Origin: Alphaproteobacteria bacterium
GTDB taxonomy: Bacteria; Pseudomonadota; Alphaproteobacteria; UBA9219
DNA length: 64,000 bases
Assembly: GCA_026225415.1 (NCBI GenBank)
Contig: JAMFSS010000001.1
Coordinates: forward strand, 1 to 64,000
Direction: 5' to 3'
How positions within the stretch are numbered: position 1 is the first letter of the stretch; the number at the start of each line of letters is the position of its first letter. This document shows, piece by piece, positions 7,131 through 25,659 of this stretch. The notes under the pieces were generated by a model, which was given only the letters and a program-made list of their open reading frames with translations, was not told where the DNA came from and did not search any database. The position numbers and the translations under genes are program-made.

Positions 7131-7831
7131 AGGGTTGCGCCTTTCTTGCGGCATTCTTCCAGCCAAAAATTTTGGTCTTCGTAAAGTGTCGGGTCTTGTG
7201 TGTGCGACAGGGCAAAAGCTTCGCGCCGTTCGACGCAAGTGCCGCAACGCCCGCAATGAACTGCGCCGCCTTTATAACATGACCAGGTGTCGGCAATAGG
7301 GACATTTAATGTGTGGGCTTGGCGGGCGATATCGGCTTTGGTGCCGGTTATAAAGGGGGTGAGGAGTTTGATGCTGGCGACGCCTTCCAATGCTTTTTGC
7401 TCCATCGCTTCAAAAGACGCGGCGAAATCGGGGCGGCAATCGGGATAGATGAAATGATCGCCAGTATGAATACCGATAGCAACGGCATCCAGATTTTGCG
7501 CGGGCGCGATGCCGTACGCGATGGCCAGCATCATCGCGTTGCGGTTGGGGACGATTGTTTGTTTCATCGATTCTTCGGCGTAATGCCCATCGGGAACGGC
7601 GATGCTATCGGTGAGTGCCGAGCCTTTGAGGTGTGCCGTGATGCTGGTGAGGTCGATGATGGCGTGCGACGTGCCGAGGCGTTGTGCGGCAAGCGCGGCA
7701 AACGCGATTTCCTTTTTATGGCGTTGGCCATAATCGAACGAGATGATGCCGCCCAGTTGGTTATCGCGGGCGAGAAGATAGGCCAGCGTGATGCTGTCGA
7801 GGCCGCCGGATACGATCGCAAGCACTTTCAT
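7127..7831 (-). CDS. queC: 7-cyano-7-deazaguanine synthase
   Basis: A 234-residue QueC, which makes preQ0 from 7-carboxy-7-deazaguanine and ammonia using ATP, for queuosine tRNA modification. The N-terminal PP-loop SGGLDSITLAYLLA binds ATP, FDYGQRHKKE is the next family motif, and the C-terminal zinc site is CYKGG..HCGRCGTCVERREAF. Its start overlaps the yejB stop by one base (TGATG) and its stop overlaps the zur start, so the three genes look co-translated. The pairing with zur is notable because QueC binds zinc. No preQ1 riboswitch is visible, as the gene is internal to an operon. Confidence 0.95.
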   Translation of the reverse strand: MKVLAIVSGGLDSITLAYLLARDNQLGGIISFDYGQRHKKEIAFAALAAQRLGTSHAIIDLTSITAHLKGSALTDSIAVPDGHYAEESMKQTIVPNRNAMMLAIAYGIAPAQNLDAVAIGIHTGDHFIYPDCRPDFAASFEAMEQKALEGVASIKLLTPFITGTKADIARQAHTLNVPIADTWSCYKGGAVHCGRCGTCVERREAFALSHTQDPTLYEDQNFWLEECRKKGATL

Positions 7832-8949
7832 CAGCCTTCTCGTTTTTCAAAATCAATCCGCGGATCGGTCAGCACATAGGCCATATCGCCAAGGATATTC
7901 ATGACGAGGCCTATGAGCGTAAAAAAATACAGCGTGCCGAACATGATGGGGTAATCGCGGTTGATGATCGCTTCGAAACCCAGAAATCCCATGCCGTCGA
8001 GCGAGAAGATGACCTCGATCAGCAGCGACCCCGTGAAGAGGATAGAGATAAAGGCGGACGGAAATCCGGCAATGACGATAAGCATGGCGTTGCGGAACAC
8101 ATGCCCGTACAGCACGCGGGTTTCGGTGAGGCCTTTGGCGCGCGCGGTCAGGACATATTGTTTGTTGATTTCATCGAGGAACGAATTTTTGGTGAGCATG
8201 GTCAGGCTGGCAAAACCGCCGATAACCATAGCCGTGACGGGCAAAGCAATGTGCCAGAAATAATCAAGGATGCGGTGCGGCCAATCCATATCGCCCCAAT
8301 TATCGGAGGTCAGGCCGCGTAAAGGAAACCAGTCGAGGTAACGGCCGCCCGCAAAGACGACAATAAGAAGGACAGCGAACAGAAAGCTGGGGATGGCATA
8401 GCCGGCGATGATTACTGCGCTGCTCCACACATCAAACGCGGTGCCGTCTTTGACCGCTTTACGGATGCCGAGCGGGATGGAGATGAGATAGACGATGAGG
8501 GTTGTCCAGAGGCCGAGCGAAATCGACACGGGCATTTTGGACACGACCAGATTAAATACGCTTTCGTCGCGGAAATAGGATTTGCCGAAATCGAAACGCA
8601 GATAATTGCCGATCATCATCAGGAATCGTTTATGCAGCGGCATATCAAAACCGAATTGATGTTCCAGTTCCTTGATCAATTCGGGATCGACGCCTTGCGC
8701 GCCCGGATAACGTGCCGATGCGCCGCCATCATCGTTCAATTTCATTGCCTGTCCGCCGGGGGCGGCGGTTTCGCCCGCGCCCGATCCGCCGAAACGCGCG
8801 GTGGCCGCCACATCGGTGCCATGCAATTTCGCGACGATTTGTTCGATGGGGCCGCCGGGTGCCGCCTGCACGATTAAAAAGTTAAGCAGCATGATCCCGA
8901 ACAAAGTCGGGATGATGAGGAGGAAGCGTTTGATGAAATAGGTGGTCAC
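7831..8949 (-). CDS. yejB: ABC transporter permease, YejB family
   Basis: A 372-residue inner-membrane permease with GTG start. It shows the YejB pattern: first helix [27 protein letters not shown], then a Gly/Ala-rich periplasmic insertion (about 40-85), then GLDPE-like sequence, [11 protein letters not shown], five further helices and the EAA loop ([10 protein letters not shown]). YejABEF takes up peptides (including microcin C-type). The usual partners yejA, yejE and yejF are not adjacent: queC follows directly, and upstream lies a long palindrome and a terminator. The start codon lies 3 bp from the palindrome, so its ribosome-binding site is inside a potential hairpin arm. Confidence 0.9.
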
Positions 8950-8952
8950 GGG

Positions 8953-9096
8953 GAACCTGTTCGTAATCTTTTGATGCCGGTCTGCAAATCGCTCTTTTTT
9001 GTATTTTTACCGCGCAGCATATTTGACATACGTAAGCGGTAAAAATACAAAAACTCCCGATTTTCGCCTCTGCCTGAAAAGATTCTGAACAGGTTC
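8953..9096. repeat. Nested 144-bp palindrome, copy 1
   Basis: Outer arms 8953-8972 (GAACCTGTTCGTAATCTTTT) and 9077-9096 are complementary at 18 of 20 positions. An inner perfect 18-bp stem pairs 8996-9013 with 9036-9053. The 22-base loop carries ATTTGACATACG. The intervening segments (GCAAATCGC / CGATTTTCGC) also roughly pair. A second copy with the same outer arms but a different inner stem is at 24661-24804. It lies immediately upstream of yejB and could be a structured RNA leader, a MITE/REP-like element or a protein-binding site. Confidence 0.85.
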
Positions 9097-9112: not shown

Positions 9113-9142
9113 AAAAAAATATGCCCGCTTTCGCGGGCATAT
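9113..9142 (-). terminator. Rho-independent terminator of the VPLPA gene cluster
   Basis: On the minus strand, ATATGCCCGC-GAAA-GCGGGCATAT forms a 10-bp stem with a GAAA tetraloop, followed by a run of T (the A-run at 9113-9119 on the plus strand). It lies 23 bp after the stop of the last tandem VPLPA gene. Confidence 0.88.
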
Positions 9143-9165
9143 TCAATCAATCAAAAGCGAAGCGA

Positions 9166-23340: not shown

Positions 23341-23721
23341 TTAGAGGTATTTTTTAACGGTCGTGATGAATTGATGGACGGCGATCGGTTTGGAAAGATA
23401 ATCATCGCACCCACCGGCGCGGATTTTTTCTTCATCGCCGCGCATGGCAAAGGCGGTTACGGCGATGATGGGGATTTGTTTCAGATCATCGGCGTTTTTC
23501 AGCCAGCTGGTGATTTCAATGCCGGAAACTTCGGGCAATTGAATATCCATCAAGATAAGGTCAGGGCGGTTGGTGCGCGCCATATCCAAAACTTCGAAAC
23601 CATTGCTGGTGTGCGCCGTGGCATAGCCATGCGCTTCCAGCAAATCGCGGAACAGTTTCAGGTTCAGCTCGTTATCTTCAACGATCATCACCAGTTTTTT
23701 ACGATGCAAATCTTCGGTCAT
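23341..23721 (-). CDS. divK: Single-domain cell-cycle response regulator DivK
   Basis: A 126-residue stand-alone receiver: [20 protein letters not shown] (acidic pair), phosphoacceptor region [13 protein letters not shown], switch residues ([13 protein letters not shown]), and KPIAVHQF with the conserved Lys. Nothing follows the REC domain, as expected for DivK, which signals through DivL/CckA to CtrA. I chose the ATG at 23721 because it overlaps the eipB stop (ATGA); a TTG two codons earlier also fits. The eipB-divK-pleD order suggests one operon. Confidence 0.93.
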
Positions 23722-24584
23722 TGGCAATTCTGCGGGGGTAAAGGTTCAACGGTATCAAGCGTGCCATTCACGGCAAAATCGCTATATTCAATTTTCATGG
23801 AACGCGAAATGCCGCTGGGCAAAAGTGTCAAATCCATTTCATAATCGGGCACACCGTTTTCATTGTCTGTAGGGAAGAAGGCCATGTGGACAGGCCATGC
23901 GGCGGCTGCCAACAACGGATTAGCCTTAGTTTTATCATCCAAAGCAGTTTCCTGGGCAATGGCACGTTGGGGGGATACAAACGCGCTGATATCGCTGGCG
24001 CCCGCTTCATCATCGCCGTCAAACACGCGGCGGGTAAAGAGTTTATTGCCCTTGGCGGCCTCCTGCAAAATCAATTGCGTGTGCATCGACGGGAACAAAG
24101 TGCCTGCGGGCAATTCCAGATGTTTGCCTTCCGGCACGCTGTAGGCGACCGATACTGTGCCATCGGCATTTTGCACAGCCTTGCCGCGATAATTTTCTGT
24201 TTCCTGTCCATTGGTCACATGGCGGATATTGAAATTATAGCTTTTGCCGTCTTTCGCTTCCCATGTCACTTCGGTCAGGGTTGAATCCTGATCGTCGCTG
24301 CCGTCGCCATAGGTGAAGTGCAATTGCGTGTGTTGCTGGATCGCCCAACCATCACACACATCGCGCCATTCAAACGCCATGTGGCCGGATGCGTCCGTAA
24401 TATTGCCACCATTTTTTACGGAGGCCAGCGACATAGTGTAAATCGCGCGGTGCGGCACAATGGATGCCGGCGTGATATGTTCGGGCGCCGTCGGCAAGGC
24501 GGCTTCGGGCACAGCCGCGACGACGGCGGCAGCCCCCGTCGCGCACAAGGCGGCAATGACGATATAGGTAAGAAGTGGGCGCAC
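23718..24584 (-). CDS. eipB: Cell-envelope integrity protein, EipB/DUF1849 family
   Basis: A 288-residue periplasmic protein with an N-terminal signal or anchor ([22 protein letters not shown]) and a conserved domain matching DUF1849/Eip[71 protein letters not shown], and a C-terminal Cys. In Brucella EipB is needed for cell-envelope integrity. It is first in the eipB-divK-pleD set, so envelope and cell-cycle functions share a transcript. Its start lies 76 bp from the second long palindrome. I assign the family by pattern, not by a search. Confidence 0.8.
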
Positions 24585-24660: not shown

Positions 24661-24804
24661 GAACTTACCCATAATCTTTCCATGCTGGGCGCAAATCGCG
24701 CTTTTTTCAGCTTTTGCAACGCGCGTATGTCTAATACGCTTGCCTTGCAAAAGCTGAAAAAATCACAATTTTCACCTCAGCCTGAAAAGATTCTGAGCAA
24801 GTTC
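24661..24804. repeat. Nested 144-bp palindrome, copy 2
   Basis: Outer arms 24661-24680 and 24784-24804 pair imperfectly. They resemble copy 1, with compensating changes (GAACTT/AAGTTC here, GAACCTG/CAGGTTC there). The inner stem, 24702-24719 with 24745-24762, is a perfect 18 bp but of different sequence from copy 1. Conserved GCAAATCGC and CCTGAAAAGATTCTGA segments lie in the same order in both copies. The loop GCGTAT-GTCTA-ATACGC forms a further small hairpin and matches the reverse complement of the copy-1 loop. Confidence 0.85.
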
Positions 24805-24829: not shown

Positions 24830-24969
24830 GGCAAATTCTTCCTTAATCACTCATGCTCGTTTGGAGTATAGCAAAAATAACATTATATATCATGTGGTTG
24901 CCCCATGATGCGCGTTTTGGCATGGGGCTTGCCTTAATACCTGTGTGAAACATGCACAGGAGAGGCTCA

Positions 24970-25659
24970 ATGCAGCTGTTGAATAAAGAAATTTTGAAAC
25001 GCGATGCACATCCCGTCAGCGTGGGACCGTCTTCGATAGGGCGCTGGGAATTATTCATGCCAACGCGCGCCGATGCGTTGGAAGCCAAGGATCTGCTGGA
25101 AACCCAGACCGCATTGGAACGCGCCGAAACCGTTATTCGCGCCCAGGAAGAACGCATCCAGCAATTGCAACAGATGGCTTTGACGGACGAGCTGACAGGG
25201 CTTGCCAACCGCCGCGGGTTTACCTTGGCGTTTGAACGTGAAATATCGCTGGCGCGCCGCGATGGCGATTATGGCGGTTTGCTGGTGCTGGTCGATCTGG
25301 ACGGGTTTAAATCCATCAATGACACATGGGGACATCAGGCGGGCGATGCCTATTTGCAGCTTGTCGCGCAATGTTTGCAAGGCGAAGTCCGCGCCAGCGA
25401 TACGGTCGCGCGTTTGGGCGGCGATGAATTTGCCGTTTTGCTGACGCATGTCGATGAAAAACATGGCGCGAAACGATTGGCCAAGCTGGAACAAAATTTT
25501 GCGCGCAAGGCATTGATGCTGGAAAAAGCCATTCCCCTGCGCGCCAGTTTTGGTTATGCGTGTTATGACGGGGCGCACACGATTGAAACAATTATTCAAT
25601 CGGCGGATTTGCATCTCTATGCCCACAAATCCCGCAACAAGACTTTACTCAAGGCTTAG
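24970..25659 (+). CDS. Diguanylate cyclase (GGDEF protein)
   Basis: A 229-residue cytoplasmic protein: an N-terminal ~60-residue segment with a coiled coil (LEAKDLLETQTALERAETVIRAQEERIQQLQQM) and a complete GGDEF domain (TDELTGLANRRGF, VDLDGFKSINDTWGHQAGD, RLGGDEFAVLL). The I-site Arg-x-x-Asp (RASD) stands five residues before GGDEF, so it should be active and feedback inhibited by cyclic di-GMP. The ATG at 24970 follows an AGGAGAGG ribosome-binding site. No sensory domain is visible beyond the coiled coil; signal unknown. Its end overlaps the next gene by 11 bp, convergent. Confidence 0.9.
   Translation: MQLLNKEILKRDAHPVSVGPSSIGRWELFMPTRADALEAKDLLETQTALERAETVIRAQEERIQQLQQMALTDELTGLANRRGFTLAFEREISLARRDGDYGGLLVLVDLDGFKSINDTWGHQAGDAYLQLVAQCLQGEVRASDTVARLGGDEFAVLLTHVDEKHGAKRLAKLEQNFARKALMLEKAIPLRASFGYACYDGAHTIETIIQSADLHLYAHKSRNKTLLKA

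Follow-up and report, generated by a model that had tools for sequence, protein, structure and literature searches.

Two long palindromes of an alphaproteobacterial genome are probably old copies of an ERIC-like mobile hairpin

The window, that is, the whole stretch of 64,000 nucleotides that was analysed (positions 1 to 64,000 of contig JAMFSS010000001.1), contains two near-palindromic elements of 144 bp, both of which had been reported in an earlier note on this DNA and are indeed present (Table 1). Copy 1 stops 3 bp short of the GTG with which the ORF of an ABC-transporter permease opens (7831-8949, minus strand; the start is as listed mechanically), and copy 2 is found between divergent ORFs, one EipB-like (23718-24584, minus strand) and one GGDEF (24952-25659, plus strand). 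EipB is an alphaproteobacterial protein, and this neighbour, like the relatives of the element, points to an alphaproteobacterium. A terminator-like site, made of a GC-rich hairpin and then a T-run on the minus strand, occupies about 9113-9144. With this site on one side of copy 1 and the listed permease start codon on the other, little room is left there for a promoter.

Each copy is predicted to fold as a single long hairpin, of -56.2 kcal/mol for copy 1 and -59.1 kcal/mol for copy 2, with in both cases a z-score of -8.8 and none of 200 shuffles folding as well. The architecture described in the earlier note was recovered: a perfect 18-bp inner stem in each copy, whose sequence differs between the two, arms and conserved segments (GCAAATCGC and CCTGAAAAGATTCTGA) that are common to both, and a motif CGTATGTC(A/T)AAT carried by the minus strand in copy 1 and by the plus strand in copy 2.

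Table 1. Positions in the window of the two palindromic elements and of their parts.
Feature	Position	Strand	Basis
Copy 1, whole palindromic element	8953..9096	- (better-folding 'bottom' strand, set by arms)	
Copy 1, left outer arm and conserved internal-loop side (GAACCTGTTC ... GCAAATCGC)	8953..8992	.	
Copy 1, 5' side of inner stem	8996..9013	.	fold
Copy 1, apical core, reversed relative to arms	9014..9035	+	alignment, core model R2
Copy 1, 3' side of inner stem	9036..9053	.	fold
Copy 1, right conserved loop side and outer arm (CGATTTTCGCC ... GAACAGGTTC)	9054..9096	.	
Copy 2, whole palindromic element	24661..24804	- (better-folding strand)	
Copy 2, 5' side of inner stem	24702..24719	.	fold
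Copy 2, apical core, usual orientation relative to arms	24720..24744	-	alignment, core model R2
Copy 2, 3' side of inner stem	24745..24762	.	fold

The pair is part of a larger set. BLAST of copy 1 against its own genome gave 14 matches, both strands counted, and a structure-aware search with a covariance model (R1, built from alignment A1 of 18 copies from three genomes) extended the two elements initially seen to 16 distinct places at E <= 0.001 in the 2.02 Mb of this genome, 9 of these places being already in the model's alignment and 150 of 976 first-look candidates having been scored. At the genus level, the element was found by BLAST in 3 of 10 genomes, its own included, and at the family level R1 matches occur in 13 of 24 genomes, including its own and G006. 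As for G006, the two inspected of its three R1 matches (L049 and L056) are another palindrome and not the window element; together with a locus upstream of a permease in G007 (L314), they are long near-perfect palindromes with CGTCATTCCGG-like ends, and are probably CGTC-type REP dimers. Several distant copies are still about 144 bp long and have both GGCTGCAAA / TTTTCGCC as their loop pair and a centre of the type GCTCACGTAY-loop-RTACGCTGCGC, with outer and inner stems that are wholly different yet complementary, and others have further loop modules. One element of the window's own genome (L030, G000:C9:193587-193730) has the usual core and outer arms that are wholly different but complementary. 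The permease that adjoins copy 1 was found in each of the 9 other species searched; in the 8 species read by eye, copy 1 is absent upstream of it, the regions being too different for an insertion to be read. Of the 16 copies of the own genome, only a few have retained a TA at each end. The copies of the genus look old, and both window palindromes are read as old copies.

The earlier note had also considered that the core of copy 1 is inverted relative to its arms, which proves right and rare: such a reversal is seen in one of the 18 aligned copies of three genomes, namely copy 1. Besides, a model of the core derived from 29 other elements (R2) matches the core of copy 2 on the minus strand and that of copy 1 on the plus strand. 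The inverted loop is therefore real and peculiar to copy 1, and would most simply have arisen by an inversion between the two arms of the 18-bp inner stem.

The 18 copies also enabled the pairing itself to be followed. Over 58 pairs, 92.8% of the cells are paired, and both sides have changed in 26 pairs (96 cells). The covariation score reaches 0.284 versus 0.121 in shuffles, none of 500 shuffles being as high, and falls to 0.025-0.085 when the partner is slid by 1-3 columns; of these two controls, the shuffle ignores relatedness, while the slid one keeps relatedness but favours a structure taken from the same alignment, as here. Further pair types were not above shuffles in this alignment (262 of 500). 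The double changes that keep pairing in many copies support the selection on structure put forward in the earlier note, as does the occurrence of G-U/G-T on one strand and of A-C on the other. By contrast, its suggestion that a stem might be replaced as a unit is not needed, given that the copies diverge by degrees and with compensating changes. Nor is sequence the only thing to be conserved, as pairing is conserved too.

The strand on which pairing is kept was examined with an aligner that is symmetric for mismatches, the top strand being defined as the one bearing GCTCACGTAY. In A1, the arm mismatches of the top strand are A-C in 45 cases versus G-T in 12, and 23 versus 5 for pairs with at least two Watson-Crick types. 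In larger sets, which were picked by the apical motif, the top-strand arm mismatches of 174 elements amount to 517 A-C versus 187 G-T, and the well-paired columns of 139 dereplicated elements to 195 versus 88; per element, these 139 divide into 82 with more A-C, 28 with more G-T and 29 ties. A-C mismatches of the top strand are G-T/G-U pairs on the complementary, or bottom, strand. In the same line, the consensus fold is of -68.7 kcal/mol for the bottom strand versus -36.9 kcal/mol for the top strand, the two alignments differing slightly, and the bottom strand folds better in 118 of the 139 elements with RNA parameters, and in 125 versus 12 with DNA parameters. The selected strand may be single-stranded DNA or RNA, between which the G-T/A-C test does not discriminate.

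Direct signs of movement come from Sphingobium megaplasmids (mostly from one sampling area), in which the same place occurs with or without an element. At site B, 5 plasmids are filled and 4 are shorter by 144 bp (3 of the 4 were read); at site C, 2 are filled and 6 are shorter by 145 bp (2 of the 6 were read); at site D, 7 are filled and 3 are shorter, all 3 of which were read and one of which is clean. The empty GGYC-TA-GCC of site C becomes GGCC-TA-GGGCC...GGCCCT-TA-GCC when filled, and the empty AGC-TA-AGG of site D becomes AGC-TA-GGGCC...GGCCC-TA-AGG, from which it follows that TA is duplicated at YTAR upon insertion. Site B is not clean, the empty plasmids having CAG where the filled one reads TAG, but otherwise fits a TA duplication, and site A is ambiguous since its two shorter plasmids differ from each other. 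Copies at unrelated places are 97.3% (sites A and B) and 97.9% (sites A and C) identical. The element is thus mobile in Sphingobium, this mobility being that of relatives that share the core motif and not that of the window's genus. About 10 bp of arm kept at another place in one plasmid are a deletion remnant, and so, probably, is a solitary left arm (L377, 2495-2530) that immediately follows a TAG stop codon in one of the genomes of the Sphingobium search. Within the core and the right arm of the site D element (L336, L346) there is extra hairpin-like sequence, which gives the impression that other small repeats have inserted there. No autonomous copy with the same ends was found in the Sphingobium places examined, a small part (15 of 27 places listed), and, of 5 Sphingobium stretches taken out, those read hold solitary arms or variant cores and no transposase. 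For one Pseudomonas element, an empty site was not obtained, its flanks not being both conserved.

While the earlier note could name no family that the elements resemble, their layout does resemble that of a known one, ERIC/IRU. ERIC, IRU or RU-1 elements are reported to be 127 bp long, to have TA at their ends, to duplicate TA and to occur in Enterobacteriaceae and Vibrionaceae (PMC2229807, PMC2759123, PMC10969869); they act on mRNA in an orientation-dependent way and are co-transcribed with genes (PMC2229807, PMC10969869), and their transfer mechanism is stated as unknown (PMC2759123). They share with the present elements a near-palindromic and non-autonomous nature, a location next to genes and orientation effects, for a length of 127 bp versus 143-148 bp. 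In the own genome, elements of 143-144 bp are dispersed over 16 places, with the above fold z-score of -8.8 for the two window copies. TA ends and TA duplication, as in ERIC, are found at Sphingobium sites C and D, and are degenerate in the 16 own copies. In addition, the ERIC consensus printed in PMC2759123 folds better on the corresponding strand (-61.8 versus -45.2).

Twenty Pseudomonas elements were gathered by BLAST with one element, independently of the centre pattern. Most of them have the layout CAAGGCG..., AG-stem-loop-stem-TGAG, ...CAACGCAGC and an apical stem that covaries (CGTAC, TGTAC, TTTAC, TTGAC), and they share with ERIC the centre AG-stem-loop-stem-TGA and the flanking modules CAAGGCG / CAACGCAGC. 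A descriptor of this Pseudomonas layout, written after the likeness had been noticed, fits the ERIC consensus on the corresponding strand only and none of 20,000 of its shuffles; it fits 34 places in 4.8 Mb of loci (both strands), 31 of which have the CGTAC stem used to choose the loci, and no place in 768,000 bases of own-genome sequence. The TGAG after the apical stem, which makes the centre complete on that side, is present in 13 of the 18 aligned copies and in neither window copy, the core of copy 1 being inverted. Further differences from ERIC lie in the arms of the window elements and in their internal modules, which on the better-folding strand read GGCGAAAAT / ATTTGCAGCC. Plain local alignment of ERIC gives a score of 29 with the P. 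viridiflava set (0 of 300 shuffles as good), and was not significant with the 20 other Pseudomonas elements (167 of 500 shuffles as good); with 8 elements of the window's genus the best score is 18 (168 of 300), and 190 and 44 of 300 shuffles did as well with the Sphingobium/Sphingomonas and the Phyllobacterium sets, respectively. A search with R2 did not find ERIC either. In the light of a likeness in layout that goes without a link by plain alignment or R2, the window elements are called ERIC-like and not ERIC: they would resemble it in their working, and possibly in descent.

The likely reading of these data is that the two palindromes represent old copies of a mobile hairpin which is non-autonomous and ERIC-like. 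The placement of the elements against the stop codon of the upstream gene and their preferred orientation relative to replication, both detailed below, speak for this reading as well. Such a near-palindrome of about 144 bp, without a gene, would be moved in trans by an enzyme and work like ERIC/IRU. Selection would act on this strand in its folded form, be it RNA or single-stranded DNA in the course of movement, and the enzyme or another factor would recognise it through the conserved centre and the internal loops. If both selection and recognition operate through the fold, the stems would stay paired while their sequence drifts.

The genomic setting allows a reading in terms of RNA as well, which we regard as rather unlikely but as the strongest competitor: the hairpin would be kept in mRNA, at the 3' end of the upstream gene or in the leader of the downstream one, where it would set stability, and movement would account for its spread only. 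ERIC is reported to set message stability in Yersinia, and co-transcription and orientation-dependent effects of ERIC are likewise reported (PMC2229807, PMC10969869). The elements do sit directly after stop codons in a fixed orientation: among 178 elements in motif-chosen loci, near-identical ones being only partly removed and ORFs of at least 120 codons being called mechanically, a stop codon lies 48-64 nt from the centre, i.e. at the element end, on the left of the top strand in 92 and on the right in 21 (Fisher p 3e-16). All three stop codon types occur there. The YTAR target combined with a loss of insertions within genes can explain part of this excess, as TAA and TAG hold a TA; TGA, the stop codon in 36 of the 92 left-end cases, falls outside this explanation. 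The position of copy 1 between a terminator-like hairpin and a start codon and the wobble pairs favoured on one strand also suit a structured RNA. Nevertheless, the strand that would be co-transcribed with the gene ending at the stop codon folds less well than the other. Besides, the replication strand is biased whereas the coding strand is not. With the GC skew of 20-kb windows as a proxy for replication direction, the bottom strand is on the C-rich side of the local skew for 49 of 67 elements of four named genomes and for 12 of the 16 own copies (61 of 83 together, p 2e-5); the majority coding strand of the 20-kb windows showed no bias for the elements of the four genomes (31 versus 36). Neighbouring elements within one locus have the same direction in 32 cases versus 6, as counted by eye.

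The pairing could also have been perfected in a neutral way, without any selection on structure, if template switching or mismatch repair operated inside the hairpin. Inner stems that are perfect and yet different between copies would be expected from such self-correction, and a single inverted core is what exchanges between arms would give. This process is however blind to strand and does not predict the asymmetry between A-C and G-T: it calls for equal numbers, where 88 G-T and 195 A-C were counted, and it leaves the conserved internal loops and centre unaccounted for. We therefore disfavour it as improbable.

Still less probable is that the elements belong to the REP/REPIN or IS200/IS605-like repeats, which a Y1 transposase (RAYT) moves in the form of single-stranded DNA. 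In IS608-type elements, single-strand transposition gives a strand-specific hairpin and a replication-strand bias, and the strand-specific hairpin and replication-strand bias found here fit such a mode. A duplication of TA, on the contrary, is not known as the mode of Y1 enzymes. In addition, the own genome (G000, given as 100% complete) has no match to Y1 (PF01797), nor to IS630 DDE_3 (PF13358) or DUF4096 (PF13340). These three were found in 7, 8 and 6 of the 24 family genomes, respectively, Y1 being present in 3 of the 13 genomes with R1 matches. Absent from the own genome, and with a presence that does not track the element, all three were rejected as mobilisers; this also counts against the main reading, whose enzyme acting in trans has no candidate among these three families. 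As for the REP/REPIN repeats themselves, they are dispersed palindromes like the window element, but GTAG- or CGTC-tagged units of 20-40 bp instead of about 144 bp without a tag, the CGTC type being reported as the commonest in Alphaproteobacteria and without a known enzyme (PMC3733652). The ends of the 18 copies read GAACC...GGTTC with variants, and have no GTAG or CGTC tag. Finally, that the two palindromes are two unrelated intrinsic terminators, a possibility raised in the earlier note, is refuted and has virtually no probability left: both hairpins do lie between genes, but the window pair aligns over 144 bp, with 16 further copies, and the T-run expected after the hairpin is absent at both copies as read from their sequence.

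Other known repeats were compared with the ERIC-like elements as well. By their descriptions, the Bru-RS1 and Bru-RS2 repeats of Brucella are, like the window element, palindromic repeats of an alphaproteobacterium; they are 103-106 bp long and serve as insertion spots for IS711, which duplicates TA at YTAR, as was seen at the Sphingobium sites. The attC sites of integrons are likewise hairpins of conserved structure and variable sequence, with one functional strand, and are located after stop codons; the Sphingobium element, unlike attC, moves without a gene. Searched at the gathering score, Rfam 15 matches two tRNAs in the window and nothing in the element, whose best sub-threshold hits are microRNA models (E 0.0051 and above); over 18 related-motif loci, its matches are four tRNAs and, at about 1.1 kb from an element, one Acido-Lenti-1. 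Literal motif strings searched in the literature gave nothing relevant among the matches listed, and text searches of the literature found no description of a wider family of hairpin repeats. An identity with the 'RSA' repeats of E. coli was dropped, the literature search having given no paper.

The apical hairpin recurs well beyond the family, in Alphaproteobacteria, Pseudomonas, Bacillota and E. coli, and the two palindromes appear to be members of a broader, ERIC-resembling group of bacterial repeats. The centre pattern was counted 34 times in Candidatus Phyllobacterium onerii, 18 in Pseudomonas viridiflava, 10 in Sphingobium SYK-6, 6 in Sphingomonas Root710 and once in Pseudomonas alcaliphila, the reversed pattern being found in none of these five genomes. 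In the species collection, it occurs in at least 118 stretches, with Brucella, Agrobacterium, Mesorhizobium, Devosia, Vibrio, Paenibacillus and Oceanobacillus among the matches listed; since these rows were picked by the motif, they cannot serve as evidence of its conservation. Over its central 58-59 bp, a Providencia element finds a match in 4094 of 5426 E. coli genomes, at a place between pyrH and frr in the two strains inspected. In MG1655, the apical hairpin is also at the pyrH-frr place, and R2 matches 19 nt of it.

Some further observations concern these distant elements. In Paenibacillus contigs, 2-4 related elements follow one another as direct tandem arrays, spaced by about 185-225 bp and in the same orientation (L068, 998-1395; L103, 2785-3371; L096, 4347-4600; L122, 5390-5605), and a similar pair is seen in L157. 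A degenerate module like CAAGG(C) ... AACG(C/A)AG, which is outside the search pattern, was noticed in L118, L064, L119 and L100, its carriers being Providencia, Desulfovibrio, Oceanobacillus and an Olavius symbiont. The apical pattern is also present in 33 stretches of the IMG/VR viral_contigs (L179-L211), some with a full element, which may be phage or mis-binned host DNA; one Pseudomonas element searched against phage records gave no match.

Going beyond the window, we tentatively entertain, as a possibility against which the balance still leans, that ERIC is a single enterobacterial branch of a larger superfamily extending across phyla (Alphaproteobacteria, Pseudomonas, E. coli, Bacillota), whose strand-polarised hairpins would move as single strands under a structure-reading enzyme. 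Movement would then require that one strand, single-stranded at the replication fork and beside stop codons, takes up its fold, and the enzyme would read, instead of sequence, a short apical stem flanked by AG/TGA and asymmetric internal loops. If true, this would amount to a hairpin-reading, TA-duplicating mode of transposition, for which we know of no described transposase family.

At a practical level, one can ask at little cost which strand of a palindromic repeat is under selection, by aligning symmetrically and counting G-T versus A-C mismatches, and the filled and empty sites of the Sphingobium megaplasmids offer a tractable and harmless system. ERIC repeats are widely used in strain typing; should they belong to a multi-phylum superfamily that shares a strand-specific fold, the enzyme could be sought by co-occurrence and the role of the fold tested by mutation of the arms.
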